NCBI RefSeq assembly: GCF_021631985.1
Contig: NZ_CP070225.1
Coordinates: 6,944,001-7,008,000 of the forward strand
Length of the DNA: 64,000 nt
Reading direction: 5' to 3'
Origin: Sandaracinus amylolyticus
GTDB lineage: Bacteria; Myxococcota_A; Polyangia; Polyangiales; Sandaracinaceae
Shown here piece after piece: positions 33,540-49,091 of the stretch. The notes below the pieces were generated by a model that had not been told where the DNA came from, did not search any database, and saw only the letters and a list, made by a program, of their open reading frames with translations. The position numbers and the translations under genes were made by a program. The first letter of the stretch is position 1. Each line of letters opens with the position of its first letter.

Positions 33540-34211
33540 TCAGGGCGTCACCTCGACGGTCGTGCGCACCCTGCGCTGCACGATCCGACCGTCGGCGTCC
33601 GGGCCGAGCCACGGCGTCCAGATCACGAGGTCGTAGCGTCCCGGTGGGATTGCCTCGCCGTCGTGCATCTCGGGCTCGGTGGTGCCACGCCGGATGCGGA
33701 CGCGCGCCGACACGTCGACGACTGCATGGAGCGCTCCTCCGGGCTCGAGCACGACCCGGACCCAACGGCACGGGATCGCGCATCCCATCGCGAACGCGGG
33801 ACCCGAGTACTCGTTCCGGAAGTCCACGAGCTCGCCGTCGCGCTCGATGTCGGTGCCCCCGATCCCCACCGAGGGCGGGAGCACGACCTCGAGGGGCTCG
33901 GCCGTCGCGTTGCGGAACGTGACCGGGACGCGCGCTCGCTCACCGCTGCGAACCGAGACCGGCTCCACGCTCGCGACGAGCACGTTCGCGTCGGCAGCGC
34001 GATCGACACCGTTCCGAGTGGTCTCGACCCGGCACTCCGCGGCCACGCGATCGAGCTCGAGCGCCGAGCCCCGGCACGGATCCGTGGAGGCCACCTCGGC
34101 CCCGCTGGTCTCCTCGACCGCGCTGGTCTCCGCGGCCGCCTGCTCGCGCGTGGGCGCGCACCCGAGCGCGATCATCGCGATCACCATCGCGTGCGTCGTC
34201 GTGTTCGACAT
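33540..34211 (-). CDS. hypothetical lipoprotein, beta-rich
   Basis: A 223-residue protein starting at ATG 34211. The signal peptide ends in the lipobox MIALGC. A short Ala/Glu/Thr linker is followed by an Ig-like beta-sandwich pattern: VPVTFRNATAEPLEVVLPPS, AMGCAIPCRW and IPPGRYDLVIWTPW. These features resemble envelope proteins with a single immunoglobulin-like domain, for example intracellular protease-inhibitor-like folds, but the match is only structural in style. It converges on the truncated fragment at 33501. Function unknown. Confidence 0.8.
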   Translation of the reverse strand: MSNTTTHAMVIAMIALGCAPTREQAAAETSAVEETSGAEVASTDPCRGSALELDRVAAECRVETTRNGVDRAADANVLVASVEPVSVRSGERARVPVTFRNATAEPLEVVLPPSVGIGGTDIERDGELVDFRNEYSGPAFAMGCAIPCRWVRVVLEPGGALHAVVDVSARVRIRRGTTEPEMHDGEAIPPGRYDLVIWTPWLGPDADGRIVQRRVRTTVEVTP

Positions 34212-34301
34212 CGCGCGAATGTAGCGGCTCACCGCGACCGCGCCGCGAGCGCGAAGCATCGGTAAGCCGAGCGCGACTCGCACCGGTGTTACACGCACGT
34301 C

Positions 34302-34856
34302 GTGAGCACGTGGTCCGGGATGGTCGTGCGGCCGACCGAAGAGGTCTGCGCCGCACTGTGGAAGACGAAGATCGAGCTGAGCCCTGCCGACGGCTTCGCG
34401 GTCGTCGCGATCCGAGGTGGGCTCGAGGCCGCGAGCGCGCTCGCCGCCGAGGTCGCGCGTGAGAGCCGCTCGGAGGTGCTCGCGCTCTTCATGCAGACCT
34501 CGGTCGACGCGTATTCGATCGAAGAGCACGGCCCGAGCGGCCCGCTGCGACGGCTCGTCTACGCGCGCGAGGGCGCAGGCTGGGCGACCATCGAGGGCGA
34601 GGCACGCCCGTGGGAGGTCGACCTCCACTTCCACGGCGACCGTGAGGGGTTCCTCACGAATCTCCACGAGCACGAGTGGAGCGACGCCGAGATCGACGCG
34701 GCCGCAGCGGCGTGGGATGCGCGCTCGGTCGCCATGCTCCCGCGCCTGCCGCCCCTCACGGCGCGCGCGTTCTCGTCGTTCGTCGCACGCTACGGGAAGA
34801 CCGCCGCGGTCGCCGATCGCCGTGGCTTCCTCGCCCGCCTCCTGCGCTTCGGCTGA
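34302..34856 (+). CDS. hypothetical soluble protein
   Basis: A 184-residue protein from GTG 34302 (VSTWSGMVVRPTEEVCAALW). No signal peptide or membrane segment. The middle segment EVLALFMQTSVDAYSIEEHG and the strand REGAGWATIEGEARPWE suggest an alpha/beta fold, and the tail is helical with basic residues. It ends 3 nt before the convergent ketosynthase stop codon. I do not recognise the family. Confidence 0.75.
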   Translation: MSTWSGMVVRPTEEVCAALWKTKIELSPADGFAVVAIRGGLEAASALAAEVARESRSEVLALFMQTSVDAYSIEEHGPSGPLRRLVYAREGAGWATIEGEARPWEVDLHFHGDREGFLTNLHEHEWSDAEIDAAAAAWDARSVAMLPRLPPLTARAFSSFVARYGKTAAVADRRGFLARLLRFG

Positions 34857-34859
34857 CGC

Positions 34860-36095
34860 CTACTCGCCCCAGGCGCGCAGGACGAGCGACGTGTTCACTC
34901 CGCCGAACGCGAAGTTGTTCGTCATGATCGTCCTCGGACGCTTCTGCACCACTTCGCGCAGATAGCCGAGCTTCGCGCAGCGGGGATCGATCTCGTCGAG
35001 GTTACGATTCGGCGCGAGGAATCCGTCGCGCATCATCTGCAGGCAGAACACCGCTTCCATCGCGCCGCACGCGCCGAGCGTGTGGCCCGTGTAGCTCTTC
35101 ATCGTCGAGATCGGCACATCGCGCTTGAACACCGAGTACGTCGCGTTGGTCTCCGCGATGTCGCCGATCTCCGTGCCCGTCCCGTGCGCGTTCACGTAGT
35201 CGATGTCGTTCGGGTGCGCCTTCGAGTCGCTCAGCGCGAGCTCCATCGCGCCGCGCATCCCGTCCTCGCTCGGCGCGGTGATGTGCAGTCCGTCGCAGTT
35301 CGTGCCGTAGCCGATGATCTCCGCGAGGATCTTCGCGCCGCGCTTCTTCGCGTGCTCGAGATCCTCGAGCACCAGCGTCGCCGCGCCCTCGCCGATCACC
35401 AGCCCGTCGCGCTTCACGTCGAAGGGACGCGGCGAGCGCTCCGGCGTCTCGTTGTACCGGATGCTCGTCGCCATCAGCAGATCGAACGTGACCGCCGTCG
35501 CGTAGTGCAGCTCTTCCGCGCCGCCCGCGATCATCACGTCCTGCATGCCGTACTTGATCGCCTCGTACGCCGCGCCGACCGACTGCGAGCCGCTCGTGCA
35601 CGCGCTGATCATCGGCAGCACGCGCCCGCGGATCCCGAAGAACGACGCGAGGTTCGCGGCGCACGTGTGCGTCATGAACTTCAGGTACGAGCTCGAGTCG
35701 AGCCCGCGCATCGTGAACTGCGTGAAGAGCGGACCGCAGAACTCCTCGAGCGCCTGCGAGCTGCCCGTCGTCGATCCGTACGCGATGCCGCAGCGCCCGC
35801 TGGCGAGCACCTCGGCGCCGACGTTCGCCTGCGCGATCGCCTGCTCGCTCGCGTACGCCGCGTAGAGCGCGACGAGGCCCATCGTGCGGCGCTTCCGCCG
35901 CGGGAAATGCGCTTGCAAATCGAGCCCGGTCACGGCGCCGCCGATGCGCGTCTGGAGGTCGGGGATGTGCCCCCACTCCGGCATCTTGCGGATGCCGTGT
36001 CGACCTCGCTTGAGCGACTCCGTCGCTTCGGCGTCGCTGTTGCCGATCGGCGAAGCGAGGCCGAGCCCGGTGACGACGACGCGCCGGCCGCTCAC
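34860..36095 (-). CDS. beta-ketoacyl-ACP synthase (KAS II type)
   Basis: A 411-residue condensing enzyme. The catalytic triad is intact: Cys166 in SACTSGS, His304 in NAHGTGTEIGD and His338 with Lys333 in KSYTGHTLGACG. It would extend acyl chains on an acyl carrier protein by decarboxylative condensation. The sequence style (THTCAANLASFFGIRG, PRPFDVKRDGLVIGEGAA, NNFAFGGVNTSLVL) recalls ketosynthases of aryl polyene-type loci more than housekeeping FabF, but that is by eye. Its GTG start overlaps the ACP stop by four bases (GTGA), so the two are translationally coupled. It belongs to an operon with a halogenase-like gene upstream. Confidence 0.92.
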   Translation of the reverse strand: MSGRRVVVTGLGLASPIGNSDAEATESLKRGRHGIRKMPEWGHIPDLQTRIGGAVTGLDLQAHFPRRKRRTMGLVALYAAYASEQAIAQANVGAEVLASGRCGIAYGSTTGSSQALEEFCGPLFTQFTMRGLDSSSYLKFMTHTCAANLASFFGIRGRVLPMISACTSGSQSVGAAYEAIKYGMQDVMIAGGAEELHYATAVTFDLLMATSIRYNETPERSPRPFDVKRDGLVIGEGAATLVLEDLEHAKKRGAKILAEIIGYGTNCDGLHITAPSEDGMRGAMELALSDSKAHPNDIDYVNAHGTGTEIGDIAETNATYSVFKRDVPISTMKSYTGHTLGACGAMEAVFCLQMMRDGFLAPNRNLDEIDPRCAKLGYLREVVQKRPRTIMTNNFAFGGVNTSLVLRAWGE

Positions 36096-36430
36096 TGCTT
36101 GGTCTCGCCTTCCGCCGCCCCCGGGTTCGTCGGAGGCTCGGTCGGTCCTTCCGGCACACCCGCCTTCGCCTTCTCGATCTCGGCGAGGACGAAGTCGATC
36201 AGCTCGTCGACGGTGCGCACCTTGCGCGCGTCGGCCGGGTCGGGGCGTCGCCCCGTCATCTCGCGCAGCTGCGTGAAGATGTCGATCGCGTCGATGCTGT
36301 CGAGATCGAGCTCTTCGTAGAGCGTCGACTCCTTGGTGATCTTCTTCGGATCGAGCTCGAACGAGTCACTGAGGATCTCGACGATCTTCCCGAAGATCTC
36401 GTCGCGGCTGAGCGTGGCAGTCTCGGACAC
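36092..36430 (-). CDS. acyl carrier protein with extended C-terminus
   Basis: A 112-residue protein. The phosphopantetheine attachment site is Ser45 in LDLDSIDAIDIF, in a normal four-helix ACP context (FGKIVEILSDSFELDPKKI at the start). After the ACP fold ends near residue 90 there is a Pro/Gly/Glu-rich tail of about 20 residues not found in AcpP. The start is GTG 36430. It lies 46 nt downstream of the halogenase-like gene and overlaps the ketosynthase. This suggests a dedicated carrier for the locus, loading the substrate for the flavoenzymes. Confidence 0.93.
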   Translation of the reverse strand: MSETATLSRDEIFGKIVEILSDSFELDPKKITKESTLYEELDLDSIDAIDIFTQLREMTGRRPDPADARKVRTVDELIDFVLAEIEKAKAGVPEGPTEPPTNPGAAEGETKQ

Positions 36431-36476
36431 GGTGCTCTCTTACAGATGAAGTCTCGGAACCACGAATCCGCGCAGC

Positions 36477-38087
36477 TCAGCCGAGCTGCACGGGCTCCAT
36501 GAACTGGTGGAGATCGAGCGGCGCGCCGCCGGTCTCGCCGAGGATCCGTCGCGCCTCGGTCAGGCAGAAATTGAAGATCTCCTCGGTGCGGGCATTGACG
36601 CCGCCCTTCTTGCGCTCGCGTCCGATCTCGTCCTGGAAGTGCAGGAGATCGGTCCCGTCGTTGTATTGGCCGAGGTTCGAGCGGTGATAATTCCCGCTCG
36701 CCTCGAGCTCGCGCACCAGGCGCCCGAAGAGCTGCCGGAAATTCTCGAGCGCGTTGAGCACGTACTCCTTGCGGCGGAGCTGCTCACGCACCTTGCGCAG
36801 ATCGAGGTGATGATCGCGCAAGAAGAAGTCGAGCCAGAGGTTGTAGTAACAGCTGATGTCGAAGTTCCACTTGAGACGCATCGTCTCGAAGCTGCCGAGC
36901 ACCGGATACTGCTCGCGATACAGCTTCATCGTGGCTTCGTATCGGAAGCGCATGAACTCGTCGTAGAGACGGCTGCGCTCCGCGAGCTCGGCGTCGCTCT
37001 CGCCCGCGAAGTCGCGACGGACCATGTCCGTGATCATGTCGCTCTCGAGCGAGATGTAGTCGGAGCCCGGCGAGTAGAACGGATCGCTGAACGCGGCTGC
37101 CTCGCCGATCATCGCCCAGCGCTCGGCGCCGTCCCAGAACTGCTTGGTCGCGTACGTGTATCGAGCGTAGTGCTCGACGTCGACCATCTCGGCCTTCTCG
37201 ATGAGCGACGCGACCGCGCGGTGCTGGCGGAGGAACTTCCAGAAGCCCTCCTCGGTGCGCATCCACGGCTCGAACACCTCGCCGACGACACCGAGCGACG
37301 TGACGCCGCGCGCGATCGGGATGAACCAGATCCAGTAGCCGCGATAACAGAAGTGGTTCGTGCTCAGCACGCGCGCGGTGTGGCGTGCCCGCGCCTTCCA
37401 CGCGTCGGCGCCCGGCCACTGTTTCTCCCCCGCGCCGCCACCCTCGCCGAGGCCGTCCATGTCGGTGATGCCGGTGAAGCGGCCCCACACCGCGCCGCAG
37501 CCGTGGGGCTCGCGCACGCGCAGCTCGCGCTGGTTGCTGATCAGCTGGCGGCGACCGCTCGCGTCGATCACCCAGCGCGCCGCGTAGCGTGTGCGCGTCC
37601 CGTCGGGCGCCTCGACCGTGAACGCATGCCGGTGGCTGCGCGCCTCGTCGGTGCCGCTCTTCAGGTCGAGATCGCGCACGGTGACGCCGACCTGGACGTC
37701 GACGGCGTCCGCGCGATTCATCTCGAGCAGATCGGCCTCGAAGCGCGCGCGATCGATCTGGAAGGTCGGGAACATCGGCAGCTTGTTGCTGCCGACCTCG
37801 CTCATCTCGAAGAGGTGCGCGTTCTTCTCGGGGGTGTCGAAGAAGAAGCGGAGGCCGTTCTTCGGGAGCTGCTCGTCGTACATATACGTCGACAGCCCGA
37901 GCTTCCGGATGAAGAAATTCGAGGCGATCTCGACGCTCGACTCACCCACCTTGAAGCCGCGCTCGACGTCCTTCTCGAAGAGCGCGATCGAGACGTCGGG
38001 CAGGGTCCGGCGCAGCTGACGCGCGACGAGGTTGCCGGCGAGACCGCCGCCGAGGATCGCGACGTCGACCTTCTTCTCGGGGTGCAC
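36477..38087 (-). CDS. flavin-dependent halogenase-like oxidoreductase A
   Basis: A 536-residue flavoprotein starting at GTG 38087, with ggag 6-7 nt upstream. The FAD-binding loop is ILGGGLAGNL (13-18), then FKVGESSVEIA, Lys76 in LPKNGLRF at the place of the halogenase lysine, the WVIDASGRR loop, and WIWFIP at 252-257, the halogenase WxWxIP motif. IGEAAAFSDPFYSPGSD closes the FAD site. Together these indicate the flavin-dependent halogenase family; some relatives are dehydrogenases or hydroxylases, so halogenation is likely but not sure. Being upstream of an ACP gene, it may act on a carrier-bound substrate. Confidence 0.87.
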   Translation of the reverse strand: MHPEKKVDVAILGGGLAGNLVARQLRRTLPDVSIALFEKDVERGFKVGESSVEIASNFFIRKLGLSTYMYDEQLPKNGLRFFFDTPEKNAHLFEMSEVGSNKLPMFPTFQIDRARFEADLLEMNRADAVDVQVGVTVRDLDLKSGTDEARSHRHAFTVEAPDGTRTRYAARWVIDASGRRQLISNQRELRVREPHGCGAVWGRFTGITDMDGLGEGGGAGEKQWPGADAWKARARHTARVLSTNHFCYRGYWIWFIPIARGVTSLGVVGEVFEPWMRTEEGFWKFLRQHRAVASLIEKAEMVDVEHYARYTYATKQFWDGAERWAMIGEAAAFSDPFYSPGSDYISLESDMITDMVRRDFAGESDAELAERSRLYDEFMRFRYEATMKLYREQYPVLGSFETMRLKWNFDISCYYNLWLDFFLRDHHLDLRKVREQLRRKEYVLNALENFRQLFGRLVRELEASGNYHRSNLGQYNDGTDLLHFQDEIGRERKKGGVNARTEEIFNFCLTEARRILGETGGAPLDLHQFMEPVQLG

Positions 38088-38360
38088 GACTTCTCCGGGC
38101 TCCGATTGGATGGCTCTGGGATCGACTTCGCCGCCGCGACGGACCCTTCGGTGCGCTACGGCGGCGTGGGTGCTCTTCTCCCCCGAGAGGGGGCCTAGGA
38201 TATCGGCGCCATGTTCCGTACGCCACCCCTTCCGCGGACGCTGGAACGCCGGACATTTGCACGCGCAAGGACCTGCCGCAGCCGTCTGTTTCGCTAGGGG
38301 ATCTCGCACTCTCCCGCGGGTGCGTGGGCGGGGGCCCACGGGTAGACTCGGCGCGCCTCT
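38088..38360. other. 273-bp divergent intergenic region
   Basis: No gene seen. Between the two halogenase-like genes, it must carry promoters in both directions. It has a perfect CCCCC-gaga-GGGGG hairpin (38180-38193) and a GTGGGC/GCCCAC dyad just upstream of the right-hand gene. A 28-codon ATG frame near 38211 has poor codon usage and is not credible. Confidence 0.5.
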
Positions 38361-40169
38361 ATGAAGCGCTACGACGTCGTGATCTGTGGTGGTGGGCTCG
38401 CGGGCCTGACGTTGGCCCGGCACCTGCGGCGCGAGATGCCCGCGGTGAGCGTCGCGGTGGTCGAGCCGACGAAGCGCCCGCTGCCCGACGCCTGCCACAA
38501 GGTCGGCGAGTCGAGCGTCGAGATCGGGGCGCACTTCTTCGAGCACGTGCTCGACCTGAACGCGTACCTGCACGAGCGCCAGCTCGTGAAGAACGGCCTG
38601 CGCTACTTCACCGGCGACACCCGCGGGCCGCTCGCGGCGCGTCGCGAGATCGGCCCGAGCGAGCACCCGGTGGTGCCGAGCTTCCAGCTCGATCGCGGGC
38701 GCTTCGAGAACGATCTGCGCGAGTTCGTCGAGCAGGACGGCGCCGCGCTCTACGAGGGCTGGCACGTGTACGGCGTCGAGCTCGCGGCGCGGCAGGAGGG
38801 CGTGCAGCCCGAGGACGCGCTGCTCGACGGCGGCATGCGACACCAGGTGATGATCTCGGCGGACGGCGGCCGTCGCGAGGTGCTCGAGGCGCGCTGGGTG
38901 ATCGACGCGAGCGGTCGCCGCCGCATCATCCAGAAGAAGCTCGGCCTGACGCGCGACAGCGATCACCCGCACAGCGCGGCGTGGTTCCGCGTGACCGGCA
39001 AGCTCGACGTCGCGTCGCTGGTGCCGGAGAGCGAGCGCGCGTGGCATGCGCGCGACGTCGATCACAACCGATGGCTCTCGACCTGCCACCTGTGCGGCGT
39101 CGGCTATTGGGTGTGGCTCATCCCGCTCTCGACCGGATACCACTCGCTCGGCATCGTCGCGGGCGAGGAGCACCATCCCTTCGAGACCTACGCGCGGCCC
39201 GAGCGCGCGATGAAGTGGCTCGAGGAGCACGAGCCGGTGCTCTTCGAGAAGATCAAGGATCTGCCGCTCGACGACTTCAAGGTGCTGCGCCGATATGCGT
39301 ACACGAGCGAGCAGGTCTTCAGTCAGGACCGCTGGGCGTGTGTCGGCGAAGCGGGTGTGTTCGTCGATCCGCTCTATTCGCCGGGCAGCGATCTGATCGC
39401 GATCGCGAATGTGCTCGCGACCGAATTGGTGCGCTCGGAGATGCGCGGTGACGCGGACTTCGCGCAGCGGGTGACCGACTCGAACGACTTCATGCTCGGG
39501 TTCACCGAGGTGACGACGACGACGTTCCGGCGGCACAGCCACATCAACGGATCGCCGGGCGTGCTCCCCGCGAAGCTGTACTGGGACAACTTCCACTACT
39601 GGTCGTTCATCTGTCAGTACTTCTTCAACCGCGTCTATCGCGTCTCGCCGGCCGATCATCGCAAGTTCCGCGAGCTGCACCGGCAGTTCGCCGCGCTGAA
39701 CGTGAAGGCGCAGTCGATGCTCAAGGCGTGGGCGCACCTCGCGCCCGGGCGCGCGAAGGGTGATTTCCTCCCGCTGCCGCAGTTCCCTTCGCTCCTCGCG
39801 GATCTGCACCTCGATCTCCAGAACCGCCGCACGCCCGACGAGACCTACGAGGTGATGAAGAAGAACCTCGAGGGCGCGAAGGAGGTCGTCGCGGAGCTGA
39901 CGTTGCGCGCGCTCAAGGCGGTCGGCCCGGAGCAGGTGCGCGAGCTCGTCGCGAGGACGGGATTCGTCGACTGGGATCTCGTGTTCGACGACGCGCGCCT
40001 CGACTACGACGCTTCGAGTGAGCGTGCCAGTCTGCGGAAGTCGCTCCCGCGCATCGCGCGCGACATGTTGCGCTGTCTGCCCGAGGTCGAGAACGACGGC
40101 TCGGGGCCGACGATGCGCGAGCTGCTCGCGATGGCACGCGGCGTCGACGCACCGCGCGTCGCGGTCTAG
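38361..40169 (+). CDS. flavin-dependent halogenase-like oxidoreductase B
   Basis: A 602-residue paralogue of the protein at 36477-38087. Motifs: VVICGGGLAGL, HKVGESSVEIG, Lys77 in LVKNGLRYF, WVIDASGRRR, and WVWLIP at 250-255 (the WxWxIP motif). Also VGEAGVFVDPLYSPGSD. It is about 65 residues longer, with an extra helical C-terminal region ending in GPTMRELLAMARG. Both enzymes keep the lysine and the motif, so they may act in sequence on the same ACP-bound intermediate. Its TAG and the TAG of the opposite gene share the four bases CTAG (40166-40169). Confidence 0.87.
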   Translation: MKRYDVVICGGGLAGLTLARHLRREMPAVSVAVVEPTKRPLPDACHKVGESSVEIGAHFFEHVLDLNAYLHERQLVKNGLRYFTGDTRGPLAARREIGPSEHPVVPSFQLDRGRFENDLREFVEQDGAALYEGWHVYGVELAARQEGVQPEDALLDGGMRHQVMISADGGRREVLEARWVIDASGRRRIIQKKLGLTRDSDHPHSAAWFRVTGKLDVASLVPESERAWHARDVDHNRWLSTCHLCGVGYWVWLIPLSTGYHSLGIVAGEEHHPFETYARPERAMKWLEEHEPVLFEKIKDLPLDDFKVLRRYAYTSEQVFSQDRWACVGEAGVFVDPLYSPGSDLIAIANVLATELVRSEMRGDADFAQRVTDSNDFMLGFTEVTTTTFRRHSHINGSPGVLPAKLYWDNFHYWSFICQYFFNRVYRVSPADHRKFRELHRQFAALNVKAQSMLKAWAHLAPGRAKGDFLPLPQFPSLLADLHLDLQNRRTPDETYEVMKKNLEGAKEVVAELTLRALKAVGPEQVRELVARTGFVDWDLVFDDARLDYDASSERASLRKSLPRIARDMLRCLPEVENDGSGPTMRELLAMARGVDAPRVAV

Positions 40170-40642
40170 CTCGGCTCGGGGAGCGCGGCGCGCAGCGTCT
40201 CGATCCACGCTCGCACGTCGGCGCGCCCCGACGACGGATTCTCCGGCTCGAGCCGCCGCAGCAGCCAGACCACGGCTTCGTCGGCGTCGGCGAGCACCTT
40301 GAGCGGCTGGCGGCGCGGTCGCGTCATCGAGTGGATCTCGGCCGCCGCGTCGACGAGCACGTCGGTGCGCTCCTCGAGCACCACGGCGATCGCGGCGAGC
40401 GGCACGAGCCGATCGAGCACGCCCGCGACCCACGGCAGGCTCGCCGCGTCGGGCGGCGGCGATCCGGGCTCGACGATCACGACGAACCCGACGCCGGGCC
40501 CCGCGCGCTCCATCGCTCGCGCGGTCACCTCGAACGAGCGCTGGAGTCGCTCGTACGTCGGCTCACCGCGCCAGATCGCCGCCACGATGCGCTCGCGAGA
40601 GCCCACCACGAACGCCGCCTCGGAATGCTCGACCCACCCCAC
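40166..40642 (-). CDS. hypothetical protein, paralogue of the gene at 41656
   Basis: A 158-residue protein from GTG 40642 (VGWVEHSEAAFVVG). I picked this start because it matches the length and opening of the paralogue at 41656-42135 (159 residues). Shared landmarks: EH-EAAF, WRGEPT-ERL, VEPGSPPPDAASLP, and QPLKVLADADEAVVWLLRRLE. The alternation of strands and helices could be a STAS/SpoIIAA-like fold, but that is a guess. The frame is open further upstream to 40888. Function unknown. Confidence 0.75.
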   Translation of the reverse strand: MGWVEHSEAAFVVGSRERIVAAIWRGEPTYERLQRSFEVTARAMERAGPGVGFVVIVEPGSPPPDAASLPWVAGVLDRLVPLAAIAVVLEERTDVLVDAAAEIHSMTRPRRQPLKVLADADEAVVWLLRRLEPENPSSGRADVRAWIETLRAALPEPS

Positions 40643-40952
40643 CCGGGAACGTTGGCGAGCGGACGTGCTCGCGTCAACGGTGCGCGTGCATCGGGAGGCT
40701 CTTTGTCGCGCGGAGGTCGCGGCGCTGCGGCGCGAGAGCACGTCCGAGATCGTCACGATCTCCCGCCCGGCGCGATCAATCCACCGACGGTCGAGGCGCA
40801 GCGCGTCGCTCGTGTACGTCGCTGCGGCGCACGGTGCGACCCGCGTCGCCACCGCGCGACGGAGCGCCTCGACGATCTCTGCGCGCACGACTTGGAACGC
40901 GGAGTGCGGAGCACGTCACGCGGCGCCGCGTGGACGTGCGCAGGAGGACACG
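40643..40952. other. 310-bp divergent intergenic region with coding-like stretch
   Basis: Separates the paralogue gene (minus) from the outer-membrane-like gene (plus). On the minus strand, 40735-40888 has G/C-ending codons in the same frame as the downstream gene, reading LRLDRRWIDRAGREIVTISD; then come unlike codons (AGA, CAA, CGA), so this may be a gene remnant rather than an extension. A TTGACG hexamer lies on the minus strand about 30 nt ahead of GTG 40642. Confidence 0.4.
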
Positions 40953-41654
40953 ATGCTCGACGAAGGCAACAGGTGGCGCGTCGCTCTCGGGTGCGCGGCG
41001 TGGAGCGTCTCGCTCGCGATCACGTCGAGCGCATCGGCGCAGGTCGACGTCGCGGAGCCGCTCGAGCAGCCCGTCGTCGTGACGGAGCAGCCGCCGCCGA
41101 CCTACACGCCGCTCACGCCGCGCGAGCTCGAGGGGTACGACATTCCGCCGCGCGATTTCCTACGCCCGCGCGCCGGCTTCTCGCTGATGGGCGGCTACAC
41201 GCTGGGCGAGCCCGAGGGCTGGCTGATGGGCGGCAGCGCGCGCATCGGAATGCAGATCGGTGATTGGTTCGCGGTCTACTACCAACCGACGGCGCTCTAC
41301 GCGAACCTGCAGACGCCGAACGATCGGCAGGACGGCGCGTTCACGTTCTGGAGCTCGTTCATGATCGAGACGACGCTCGCGAGCTGGGTGTCGATCGCGG
41401 CCGGCCCTTCGGTCGATCTGTGGACCGGGTGCGACGAGGGCGCGCTGCCGGACACACAGGCCCGCGAGGGCCAGGGGTGCGACTCCGACGAGCCGTTCTT
41501 CGGTGTGCACGGGCGCGTCGCGCTGAACATCCCGACGTACGCGGTCGGCGATCGCAATGCGATCCAGGTCTCGGTCGAGGTGCATCCGACGTGGCTCGGC
41601 GATGGCTTCGAGACCATCGCGATCCTCGGCGGGCTCGGCTACGACACGATGTGA
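40953..41654 (+). CDS. secreted/outer-membrane-like beta protein
   Basis: A 233-residue protein; aggagg 5 nt before ATG 40953 fixes the start. A signal peptide ends near SASAQ (residue 30). After a short Pro/Glu linker, alternating hydrophobic strands with aromatic ends (GFSLMGGYTLG, WFAVYYQPTALYANLQ, FTFWSSFMIETTLASWVSIAAGP, IQVSVEVHPTWLGDGF) suggest a small beta-barrel. Two cysteines (CDEGA, CDSDE) could bridge. Function unknown; it converges with a 1-nt gap on the second paralogue gene. Confidence 0.82.
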   Translation: MLDEGNRWRVALGCAAWSVSLAITSSASAQVDVAEPLEQPVVVTEQPPPTYTPLTPRELEGYDIPPRDFLRPRAGFSLMGGYTLGEPEGWLMGGSARIGMQIGDWFAVYYQPTALYANLQTPNDRQDGAFTFWSSFMIETTLASWVSIAAGPSVDLWTGCDEGALPDTQAREGQGCDSDEPFFGVHGRVALNIPTYAVGDRNAIQVSVEVHPTWLGDGFETIAILGGLGYDTM

Positions 41655-46900: not shown

Positions 46901-47380
46901 AACCGGCTCGGGCTCGCGCACGCGTGCTGCGGCCGCGCGTCGATCGCACTGATGCGCGACGATCCGACGAAGGCCGTGGAGCTCGCGCGGGAGGCGCTGG
47001 CGCTCTACCCCGAGTCGTTCGGCGCGCAGGAGTCGCACTTCGCGCTGTTCAACCTCGGCGTCGCGTGGCGTCGCCTCGGTCGCCTCGACGACGCGCGCGC
47101 GGTGCTCGTCGACGGGATCTCGAGCCTCGTGCGCGGTCATCGCCCCGGCTTCGCATCGCGACTGCAGATCGCGCTCGCGGTGGTCGAGGCGCAGCGAGGC
47201 AGTTGGGACGATGCGCGCACGCAGCTCGACGCCGCGTCGGCGTTCGCGCGCGAGTACGGCGTGCGCGAGACGGTCCTGGCGCGCGAGCTCGAGCACCTCG
47301 TCCCGGTCGCCACGTCGGCGTCGCGAGACGATCTCGCGCGAGACGCGCGCGACCTGGCGCGACGGCTGCGGGCGCGCTGA
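43949..47380 (+). CDS. Ser/Thr kinase-AAA-type ATPase-TPR signalling protein
   Basis: An 1143-residue protein from GTG 43949. Kinase domain about 5-285: LGCGGMGEVW, Lys39, HRDIKPANV from 140, DFG 165-167, APE 191-193. A 90-residue Thr/Ala/Pro-rich linker precedes an ATPase with Walker A GPSGVGKT (405-412) and Walker B ALVIGLDDLQWGDD (near 530). About 500 residues of TPR-like helices follow (AEVVARQGRMHVADPDLAAAEA, LGRLDDARAVLVDGI). Same plan as 11565-15131, but with the longer linker. Cytosolic, with no membrane segment. It is followed after 49 nt by a radical SAM gene on the same strand. Confidence 0.93.
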   Translation: MRAPIAVGPFVVHTPLGCGGMGEVWAGAHVAQGVPIAMKMLRGERALARPYVWAFRREAERLAALDHPAIVTIFDYGTLPDEVAAASRGALVPGSPYLAMELCDGGALATRGRLAWSEVAWVLRVLLDALAHAHARGVLHRDIKPANVLVSSSVDPSRPGIVLSDFGIACALDADDEPVRFDFAGTHGYMAPEQVRGDVREFGPWTDLFALGCSAWALLAGHAPFRAAPAGEARRPAIERDLPSLPDDVSVPHEARAFLEQLTRRDPRERFQRAADAASALESIASTTPAALPRRFLDPQTAPTLDSLRTRVASTSSLPTLEITSVRDAAPARVAAAAPALATTPTSWRTARTPPARMQLLGAGLSLYGAREVPLADRDEERDRLWRALVDVQTQRHARVVVLRGPSGVGKTRLLRWVLHRAHELGAGTTLLATHAPERSVRDGFAPALARHLRCVGLPADALRARIARLLDTSPDPMEIDALFALLAPFACPEGAPQGTSRDTTLHALRRAIAREASARALVIGLDDLQWGDDTVRILRALREGDSLPMLVVATVQDEAPLVAPDTRAALEALERDAISIALGPLGAEDHLRLIEQLLRLEPALARELARRTAGNPLFAEQLVGDWVRRGVLEVRPAGLTLREGVAIELPDDLHAVWIARVERLLHDRSDHDREALELAALLGHRVDEDEWARACAFAGLGSPRELGAALTRARLLERDHEGGLSFVHGMLRESVLRASRDAGRRDRQARTIEVLLRGRIALGTRDAGERLGRLLAEHGRGLEAAPLLVSSADARREACEHGTALALLDEAEMALDAAGVGPEDVARAAAWVGRASALRMLGDYPAAIAAAERVLAHQRDPAWTEHVPWARLRRAEVVARQGRMHVADPDLAAAEAELARRGELGGVAQIASLRAWAGLFAGDLDGSLAVFARLRALLSGPEAPPPGPLHVDWSIGFAHVAREEPELAEAAFARADEGARRLRNRLGLAHACCGRASIALMRDDPTKAVELAREALALYPESFGAQESHFALFNLGVAWRRLGRLDDARAVLVDGISSLVRGHRPGFASRLQIALAVVEAQRGSWDDARTQLDAASAFAREYGVRETVLARELEHLVPVATSASRDDLARDARDLARRLRAR

Positions 47381-47429
47381 GCCGGCGCGCCGTGCTCCCA
47401 CGAGCACACGCTGCTACCTCTCGGCCCCG

Positions 47430-49091
47430 ATGTCGCCGCGCGTGCTGGTGGTCACGGGAGGGCTGGTCTCGGCCGAGGACACCGATCTGCTGGAGGCGCT
47501 GCGAAAACAGATCGCAGCGCTCCGGGGGTCGGAGGCGGTCTGGCTCGATCTGCAGATCAAGCTGCACGCTGCGGAGCGATTGCTCGCCGCGGATCGACAC
47601 CGTCGCTCGCGCGCGTTCCAGATCGCGCCCTATCGCGCGGCGGTCGAGCGCTTCGACGGGCATGCGCCGATCGGCGAGATCCCCGAGCTCACCGAGGTCG
47701 CGCTCGCGACGCTGCTCGAGCGCGAGGGCTTCGAGGTCGAGTGCACGACCTACTCGAAGCTCCACGCCGACGCAGCGCTTCGCGAGCGCCTGCTCGCGCG
47801 CACCGACGCGGTGTTCGCGTCGACGACGCTGCTCCACGATCGCGCCGAGATGGATCCGATGCTCGCGATGCTGAAGCGACCGCACAACAAGGTGGTCGCC
47901 GGCGGCGCGCTCGCGTCGATGCTCCACGCGACGTGGGACGGATCGAGCGCGATCGATCTGCTCGCGGTGGGCTACGGCGAGATGCTGGTGCCCGCGATCG
48001 CGCAGTGGCTGCGCACCGGTGAGCTCGTCGCGCCGGAGCGCGGGCGGCTCGAGGAGCGGGGCGGCACGCCGATCGTCTTCTCCGGCGTGCCCGAGGGGCG
48101 CGTGCTCGATGCGCTGCCTGCGCCCGACTGGCGCATTGCCGAAAGGGTGCACGGACGTCGATTCCGGATGGCGCACTACGAGTCGGTGCGTGGCTGTCCG
48201 TATCGATGTGCGTTCTGCAATTATCCGTATCTCTTCGACGACACGAAGTTCCGATATCGCAGCGCCGAGCGCATCGACGCGGACTGGGCCGCGCTCGAGG
48301 CGCAAGGCATCGAGTACGTCAGCTGTCTCGACAGTCTGTTCACGATGCCGCGCAAGCGATTGCAGGAGCTGTGTCGGCGCCTGATCGCGCGCGGCAGTCG
48401 GCTCAAATGGATCTGTTATGCGCGCGCCGACGATCTCTGTGATCTGCCGACTGCGCAGCTCATGAAGGACGCGGGCTGCGTGCAGGTCCAGATCGGGGTC
48501 GAGTCGGGCAGCGACGTGATCCTGAAGAACATGAACAAGGCGTGCACCGCCGACGAGAACCGGCGCGCGCTGATCAACTGTCGCAAGGTCGGGCTCACGT
48601 CGCTGGTGACGGTGATCGTCGGGTTCCCCGGCGAGACCCGCGAGACCGTCGACGAGACCTACGCGCTGCTCGCGAGCGCGCCGCCCGACGTGTTCTACGT
48701 CGTCGCGTTCTCGACGTGGGTCGAGGGCGTTCCGATCCTGAAGGACGAGACCAAGAAGAAGCACGGCCTGGTCACGCTGAGCGGGGTGCCCTCCCCTGCT
48801 CCGTACTGGCGTCATCCCGGCATGTCGTGCACCGAGGTCTCGCACGAGGTGAAGCGGCTCAACGAGAAGCTCATCGAGAGCCGCGTGGGGCTCGAGGGGT
48901 TCCTCTTCTATCGCGGCCTCCTGGGCTACGACCCCGCGGATCGTGAAGCGTTGCTCGACTTCCAGCGCGACGTGATGCGCGGACAGCCGATCCTGCGCGG
49001 CCTCGTGCGCGGGCTCGATGCATTCGTGCACCGCCAGCTGGTGCGCGACGTCGAGGCCCGCCTCGGCGCTGCGCGCGCGATGTCGGCCTGA
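47430..49091 (+). CDS. B12-binding-type radical SAM enzyme
   Basis: A 553-residue protein starting at ATG 47430. Residues about 80-200 resemble the cobalamin-binding Rossmann domain of B12-dependent radical SAM enzymes (LLEREGFEVECTTYS, ADAVFASTTL, VVAGGALASML, DLLAVGYGE). The [4Fe-4S] motif is CPYRCAFC (Cys256, Cys260, Cys263), followed by QGIEYVSCLDS and VQIGVESGS with VTVIVGFPGE. Many such proteins are methylases or tailoring enzymes; the substrate is not evident. The His ligand for cobalamin (DxHxxG) is not seen, so the cofactor is uncertain. It may be co-transcribed with the upstream kinase. Confidence 0.88.
   Translation: MSPRVLVVTGGLVSAEDTDLLEALRKQIAALRGSEAVWLDLQIKLHAAERLLAADRHRRSRAFQIAPYRAAVERFDGHAPIGEIPELTEVALATLLEREGFEVECTTYSKLHADAALRERLLARTDAVFASTTLLHDRAEMDPMLAMLKRPHNKVVAGGALASMLHATWDGSSAIDLLAVGYGEMLVPAIAQWLRTGELVAPERGRLEERGGTPIVFSGVPEGRVLDALPAPDWRIAERVHGRRFRMAHYESVRGCPYRCAFCNYPYLFDDTKFRYRSAERIDADWAALEAQGIEYVSCLDSLFTMPRKRLQELCRRLIARGSRLKWICYARADDLCDLPTAQLMKDAGCVQVQIGVESGSDVILKNMNKACTADENRRALINCRKVGLTSLVTVIVGFPGETRETVDETYALLASAPPDVFYVVAFSTWVEGVPILKDETKKKHGLVTLSGVPSPAPYWRHPGMSCTEVSHEVKRLNEKLIESRVGLEGFLFYRGLLGYDPADREALLDFQRDVMRGQPILRGLVRGLDAFVHRQLVRDVEARLGAARAMSA

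Follow-up and report, generated by a model that had tools for sequence, protein, structure and literature searches.

On the chromosome of Sandaracinus amylolyticus, near 6.98 Mb, four genes stand together: two divergent genes for flavin-dependent halogenase-like enzymes, called Hal1 and Hal2 here, and the genes for an acyl carrier protein (ACP) and a ketosynthase (KS). They lie in the 64,000-nucleotide stretch that was analysed (the window, C1:6944001-7008000), part of a genome made up of a chromosome of 10,754,065 bases and a second contig of 209,732 bases. With a probability of about 0.7, this locus is a fragment of an aryl polyene pathway, a route to a yellow pigment lipid, that is dispersed over five loci, and Hal1, Hal2 and the other halogenase-like enzymes of these loci halogenate the pigment lipid. 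The membership of the window genes in an aryl polyene pathway is well supported. Because five halogenase-like enzymes accompany this pathway, its product may be a halogenated pigment. A more detailed version is offered tentatively, at slightly worse than even odds: the product would be a multiply halogenated aryl polyene lipid, encoded at five loci of which four hold halogenase-like enzymes (five in total), Hal1 and Hal2 would form a new subfamily whose substrates are aryl-polyenyl intermediates bound to an ACP, and the same class of pigment would be made by other Polyangiales and by Nitrospirales.

The ketosynthase and the carrier protein

What kind of KS and ACP are encoded beside Hal1? The KS scores 534.6 bits with the NCBIfam model NF006587 (cut-off 470), and its best PDB sequences are 4ewg (426 bits) and 7f27 (418 bits), which the consulted portion of PMC8358021 identifies as PpApeR from P. 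phymatum and AbApeR from A. baumannii. Compared with the Ape proteins of E. coli CFT073, it has 48% identity to ApeR (388 bits) versus 28% to ApeO (126 bits). An ordinary fatty-acid KS was considered and rejected, since the ApeR-type model and the ApeR structures fit the protein better. The motifs ACTSG, NAHGT and GHT make up the Cys-His-His set, and therefore this predicted ApeR-type enzyme, the second KS of aryl polyene pathways and homodimeric in that type, should be active. The ACP matches NF003757 with 87.3 bits (cut-off 65) and E. coli ApeF with 40% identity, with no match to ApeE at E<=0.01. Both proteins are single: the KS is the sole ApeR-type KS above the cut-off in the window genome, as is its counterpart in G181, a genome of the same genus, and the ACP is the sole NF003757 match at E<=1e-8 in the window genome and has likewise one counterpart each in G181 and G182, also of this genus. 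The initial annotation, made from the window's letters, had seen Hal1 at the head of an operon with a dedicated ACP and a KS, and this holds: 46 bases separate Hal1 from the ACP, and exactly 4 bases (36092-36095) are shared between the end of the ACP gene and the start of the KS gene. It had also singled out the tail of the ACP as unusual. Length and sequence of this tail vary among 10 aligned ACPs, so it is not a conserved feature and was discarded as a signature.

A probable single pathway over five loci

Where are the other genes of such a pathway? The 18 Ape proteins of E. coli CFT073 (apeA-R, L092) served as queries at E<=0.01 and matched no gene in the window besides those for ApeR and ApeF types. 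Five loci, located through family searches and Hal paralogues and not picked blindly, together hold homologues of 16 of the 18 (Table 1), 15 of them found by sequence search. The remaining one, ApeN, gives no BLAST match in the five loci at this threshold and is matched through Pfam DUF3261, with 31 bits against a cut-off of 22.3; there is one such protein in the window genome and one in G181. The same holds for the ApeO-type KS at E<=1e-100, one in each genome. The initial annotation was thus right that the window lacks a full fatty-acid or polyketide set; for the genome this does not hold, as ape genes stand at four other loci.

Table 1. Genes of the window locus (window coordinates) and the five loci of the pathway (genome positions in Mb; percentages are identities to E. 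coli Ape proteins)
Feature	Position	Strand	Contents or basis
KS, ApeR type	34860-36095	-	NCBIfam, PDB, E. coli ApeR comparison, Cys-His-His motifs
ACP, ApeF type; DSI phosphopantetheine site, variable Pro/Glu-rich tail	36092-36430	-	NCBIfam NF003757, E. coli ApeF comparison
Hal1, 536 amino acids, flavin-dependent halogenase-like, first gene of the operon; K76, WIWFIP 252-257, FSDPFYSPG 333-341	36477-38087	-	Pfam, PDB, AlphaFold2/Foldseek
Divergent Hal1/Hal2 intergenic region, 273 bp; both promoters presumed here	38088-38360		Position
Hal2, 602 amino acids, flavin-dependent halogenase-like, divergent from Hal1; K77, WVWLIP 250-255, FVDPLYSPG 334-342	38361-40169	+	Pfam, PDB, AlphaFold2/Foldseek
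Window locus	6.98 Mb		ApeR, ApeF; Hal1, Hal2
L071	8.60 Mb		ApeO 42%, ApeC 27%, ApeE 46%, ApeG 35%, ApeH 29-30%; third halogenase-like enzyme, FDH3
L073	8.37 Mb		ApeJ in two parts 44/35%, ApeK 34%, ApeL 29%, ApeM 27%, DUF3261 (ApeN family); aromatic amino acid lyase
L052	5.32 Mb		ApeQ 50%, ApeP 34%, ApeI 43% over 61 residues; Hal2 paralogue
L051	10.49 Mb		ApeD 25%; Hal1 paralogue

At 8.60 Mb, ApeO and ApeC match the long and short chains of the ApeO-ApeC structures 6qsp and 7f28. ApeO has the motif TACSSS, and its neighbour ApeC matches 6qsp_B (E 4e-5) and 7f28_A (E 4e-4). A PRK09185 protein of this locus was tried as a chain-length factor and rejected on its active-site Cys and its match to ApeO; ApeC is the adjoining short PF13723 open reading frame. 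At 8.37 Mb, between the ApeJ- and ApeK-like genes, stands an aromatic amino acid lyase with an ASG motif (L073:2088-3650), placed as in a Pseudoalteromonas locus (L093), and the lyase suggests a cinnamic or coumaric starter. The lyase, the ketoreductase and the LolA proteins also match FlxA, FlxB and LolA2_flexi of flexirubin-type pathways, but all three stay under the cut-off (303 of 700, 295 of 340 and 52 of 125 bits) and HutH-type models give the lyase a better score.

Among the known systems nearest to this one is that of E. coli CFT073 (apeA-R), whose genes are listed in the gene table of PMC8253772 and whose pathway was reconstituted with Xenorhabdus doucetiae enzymes. The likeness covers ApeO-ApeC, ApeR, both ACPs, both dehydratases, the ketoreductase, the ligase, the acyltransferases and the export set. 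Attachment and export together are represented by ApeD, ApeG, ApeJ, ApeK, ApeL, ApeM and ApeN. The E. coli genes stand together, however, with no flavin halogenase in the stretch examined, whereas Sandaracinus has five loci, five halogenase-like enzymes spread over four of them and an aromatic amino acid lyase.

Layout in relatives

Could the split be a fault of assembly? In G181, a single-contig genome, the five loci recur at 0.82, 2.24, 7.76, 9.65 and 9.80 Mb, and their ape and hal genes are the same; the split is therefore not such a fault. The five-locus layout is real, and has INTERMEDIATES. A single cluster as in E. coli, which is usual and which the chemistry does not require, is found neither in the window genome nor in G181. 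More compact versions occur in relatives. G026 has, within about 20 kb of a 34.9-kb contig, ApeR, FDH3, ApeO, DUF3261, ApeI, ApeD, a second ApeR, Hal1/Hal2, ApeF, ApeP, ApeM, a LolA-like gene, ApeK, ApeJ in two parts, ApeG, ApeQ and ApeE. G180 has two clusters, a core of about 22 kb on contig C65 and, on C27, a Hal cassette with ApeF, ApeP, ApeR and ApeD. One cluster in G026, two in G180 and five loci in Sandaracinus form a series that offers a case of a cluster dispersing or assembling with its parts staying conserved. The place of the ACP varies, being inside the Hal1-to-KS run in L053 and L057 and beside Hal2 in L060, L062-L065 and L082. G039 and G019 have Hal2 amid ape genes, with no further Hal match at E<=1e-20. 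A Hal1 of 79% identity is on a contig labelled uncultured Sandaracinus sp. (L039). In L059 and L088 (G174:C127) a tandem Hal1 pair shares its contig with an ApeF/ApeP/ApeR set at a distance of about 27 kb. Beyond the order, contigs of Nitrospirales metagenome-assembled genomes (L042, L043, L045 and L049) each carry a tandem pair of Hal1-family genes next to an ApeO-type KS, and L042 and L049 additionally have an FDH3-type gene and more ape-like genes; Nitrospirota may thus have halogenase-rich aryl polyene pathways of their own.

These layouts bear on two other readings of the locus. Is it a compact pathway in its own right? The initial annotation had proposed a self-sufficient locus that tailors a short carrier-bound acyl chain, so that Hal1, Hal2, the ACP and the KS would make a separate metabolite apart from the ape genes. 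The window has indeed no further ape gene, and the four genes stay together in several Polyangiales even where other ape genes are on separate contigs. The proposal does not survive the identity of its parts: the KS and ACP are the only ApeR- and ApeF-type ones found in the genome, the other pathway genes stand at four genomic sites, fuller cassettes in relatives add ApeP, ApeD, ApeM and DUF3261, and G026 has Hal1/Hal2 in the midst of ape genes. We regard a stand-alone pathway as very improbable.

Alternatively, do Hal1 and Hal2 serve another Sandaracinus product, such as the prenylindole indiacen B, which is chlorinated, and stand next to ape genes by chance? According to the main text of PMC9306752, S. 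defensii produces indiacen A and B. Against this, several genera as well as Nitrospirales have Hal1 or Hal2 in the company of ape genes, and the genome offers other Trp_halogenase-family matches as candidates for such a role (e.g. C1:1583537, 99 bits), which makes a chance neighbourhood scarcely credible. The second contig (209.7 kb) also has Trp_halogenase-family matches and a KS match close together (G000:C2:80133-84482); these are perhaps the plasmid-borne sandarazol genes that the main text of PMC9306752 mentions.

Are Hal1 and Hal2 halogenases?

That the window encodes two divergent flavin-dependent-halogenase-like enzymes with WxWxIP and the halogenase lysine, as first annotated, is borne out, and the motifs are kept in relatives. 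Pfam Trp_halogenase gives 43.1 bits for Hal1 (N-terminal part only) and 43.8 bits for Hal2, and both have the FAD-binding GxGxxG near the N terminus as GGGLAG. K76 of Hal1 aligns with the Lys of the MalA' motif KDGLSFYF, a position which we take to be catalytic. Of the Hal1 rows, 51 of 52 have this Lys (the remaining one has a gap, and one row is a fragment that starts past the Lys), as do 22 of 22 Hal2 rows and 15 of 15 FDH3 rows. WxWxIP is kept in all three families; across their rows WxW is invariant and the frame FxxPxxSxG, presumably a halogenase motif, is nearly so. In these sets the window protein counts twice, and rows with under 250 matched residues or identical over residues 40-300 were dropped. 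The PDB matches of Hal1 at E<=0.001 are 17 distinct sequences, 16 of halogenases (among them five versions of MalA', two of Bmp2 and two of CtcP) and one of the uncharacterised flavoprotein 3nix. Hal2 has 21, of which 17 are of the same kinds as those of Hal1 and four are weak matches to sulfide:quinone oxidoreductases. The initial annotation would have been refuted by both flavoenzymes falling among non-halogenating dehydrogenases, which the PDB matches of Hal1 do not show. The AlphaFold2 models, built on 42 of the 52 Hal1 rows and 14 of the 22 Hal2 rows, have mean predicted confidence (pLDDT) values of 91.4 and 89.3. Foldseek places both closest to halogenases with 3nix close behind (for Hal2 the best are MalA', 3nix, RadH and PltM), and VIA-align gives Hal1 a Z of 29.5 both to PltM and to 3nix. 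With the flavin halogenases PltA, ChlB4, Mpy16, Bmp2, CndH, RadH, MalA', PltM and CtcP, Hal1 and Hal2 share the fold, the FAD site, the Lys, WxWxIP and FxxPxxSxG; they differ in having only about 14-22% identity to them and in occurring with aryl polyene genes.

How do the three families relate? A tree was made from 48 picked rows, 22 labelled Hal1 (one from Janthinobacterium lividum), 12 Hal2, 12 of FDH3 type and two other halogenase-like proteins of the window genome, which sit on long branches that, as the tool warns, may mislead the root. Hal1 and Hal2 together are split from FDH3 (100/100) and Hal2 forms one group (100/99), with Hal1 not resolved as one group. The paralogue at 5.32 Mb falls together with Hal2 of G039 and G019. 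FDH3-type enzymes (32-36% identity) stand amid ape-like genes on Pseudoalteromonas and Roseomonas plasmids (two loci examined), and FDH3 is therefore taken as a usual aryl polyene flavoenzyme, with Hal1 and Hal2 as additions. The xanthomonadin cluster of Xanthomonas and relatives is an aryl polyene pathway that likewise has a halogenase gene. Halogenase genes near the ORF16-ORF17 (chain-length factor and KS) pair in Xanthomonas and others are described in the consulted part of PMC3691225, and FDH3 of Sandaracinus adjoins ApeC-ApeO in the same way; Hal1 and Hal2, in contrast, fall apart from the FDH3 type in the tree, which contains no Xanthomonas sequence. From the motifs and the best-matching models, we infer that Hal1 and Hal2 are probably halogenases. 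A plasmid search with Hal1 returned three records, none covering 80% of it. On the J. lividum plasmid NZ_CP139977.1, a Hal1/Hal2-like flavoenzyme (L094:7992-9590) lies near an aspartyl/asparaginyl hydroxylase and a type I polyketide synthase, not near ape genes; labelled Hal1 when picked, it falls beside Hal2 in the tree.

Would these enzymes rather hydroxylate? In an aryl polyene locus, Hal1 and Hal2 could be flavin monooxygenases or desaturases, with hydroxylation or another oxidation of the aryl head or chain as their reaction. Hal1 shares its superfamily with hydroxylases of the p-hydroxybenzoate hydroxylase type, and its VIA-align Z to p-hydroxybenzoate hydroxylase (25.9) is as high as that to the proven halogenase CmlS (25.8), so the reaction cannot be read from the fold by itself. 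The NCBIfam matches include geranylgeranyl (GG) reductase and hydroxylase families, all under the cut-off, and the low identity to the listed halogenases points the same way. The Lys at the halogenase position, WxWxIP and FxxPxxSxG are nevertheless kept in the Hal1, Hal2 and FDH3 families, and halogenases and 3nix make up both the PDB matches of Hal1 and the top Foldseek rows, so that an oxidative role seems unlikely.

Co-occurrence across the order, and points against

Do Hal genes and aryl polyene genes travel together? Among 183 genomes of the order, with the best few candidates per genome scored, Hal1-family matches (E<=1e-20) occur in 41 and ApeO-type KSs (E<=1e-100) in 34, with both in 24. 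Where Hal1 reaches at least 430 bits, 20 of 23 genomes have an ApeO-type KS (the misses are G005, G017 and G113), versus 14 of the 160 others. Fisher tests of co-occurrence give p values of 1e-11 and 8e-15, which ignore shared ancestry and so are not independent evidence. The Hal and ApeO matches are at most 10 kb apart in four of the 24 genomes having both (G019, G026, G039 and G176).

Like the hydroxylase score of Hal1, several further observations weigh against a halogenating aryl polyene pathway. An ApeO-type KS is missing from 17 of the 41 Hal1-family genomes, 14 of them in family f11, and 10 of the 34 genomes with the KS have no Hal match; the tie is therefore not strict, and strict co-occurrence was rejected. 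None of the ape queries matched in three f11 loci of 20 kb each (L068-L070). In the five Sandaracinus loci the ApeA lipoprotein and the ApeB methyltransferase have no match at E<=0.01, in a search confined to those loci, and the matches to ApeI (38 bits) and ApeC (42 bits) are weak. The assignments of ApeQ and ApeD lean on their neighbourhood and on their company in relatives, because both come from large generic families. In G026, the ApeH and ApeC queries found no match on the contig of the cluster.

The f11 genomes at issue (L032-L038 and L068-L070) have Hal1 relatives of about 40-46% identity and no ApeO-type KS at E<=1e-100. These relatives are perhaps a halogenase-like family with another role.

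A proposed route

How would a halogenated pigment lipid be made from these parts? The roles of the Ape proteins are drawn from in vitro work with enzymes of X. doucetiae and A. baumannii and from deletions in E. coli, as given in the consulted parts of PMC8358021 and PMC8253772; for Sandaracinus, the reaction steps, substrate, timing, halide and product are predictions from gene content. The aromatic amino acid lyase and the ApeH-type ligase would supply an aryl acid and load it onto the ApeE-type ACP (8.37 and 8.60 Mb). ApeO-ApeC (8.60 Mb) and the ApeR of the window would then extend the aryl starter with malonyl units on the ApeF-type ACP of the window, and ApeQ, ApeI and ApeP (5.32 Mb) would reduce and dehydrate each keto group to give the polyene. 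ApeD, ApeJ, ApeK, ApeL, ApeM and ApeN (10.49 and 8.37 Mb) would link the polyene to a lipid and bring about its export to the outer membrane. Hal1, Hal2, one paralogue of each and the third flavoenzyme beside ApeO-ApeC may halogenate the aryl head or the chain, probably in carrier-bound form; that they act on carrier-bound intermediates is a guess, made because the Hal genes sit beside ApeF and ApeR. The colonies of S. defensii are yellowish-orange, according to the main text of PMC9306752.

What is new here? Aryl polyene clusters have been described in marine myxobacteria and in Minicystis (the consulted parts of PMC6226438 and PMC8436480, respectively). In a limited literature search on aryl polyenes, halogenation and myxobacteria, neither the five-locus split nor the Hal1/Hal2 set was found to be described. 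The S. defensii genome paper lists 21 predicted clusters, and the words 'polyene' and 'arylpolyene' are absent from its main text, figures and supplement excluded (PMC9306752). A pathway split over five loci is easily missed. With five halogenase-like enzymes in a single pigment pathway, the product is predicted to have a clear isotope signature, and the enzymes are candidates for flavin halogenases whose substrates may be aryl polyenes bound to a carrier.

Further features of the window

The start of Hal1 is a GTG by our choice, with GGAG five bases upstream; the frame stays open further upstream. Between the window and G181, dN/dS is 0.149 for the KS, 0.152 for the ACP, 0.115 for Hal1 and 0.144 for Hal2, so all four genes look to be under purifying selection, as judged from two genomes of one genus. 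The Hal1/Hal2 intergenic region is identical to its G181 counterpart in 257 of 299 alignment columns, and an Rfam search of 34000-41000 returned no RNA element at the gathering score. Further along, at 47211-49091 (+), the window encodes a B12-binding radical SAM protein whose best NCBIfam model is the PhpK-type P-methyltransferase family, at 164.8 of 600 bits, far under the cut-off.

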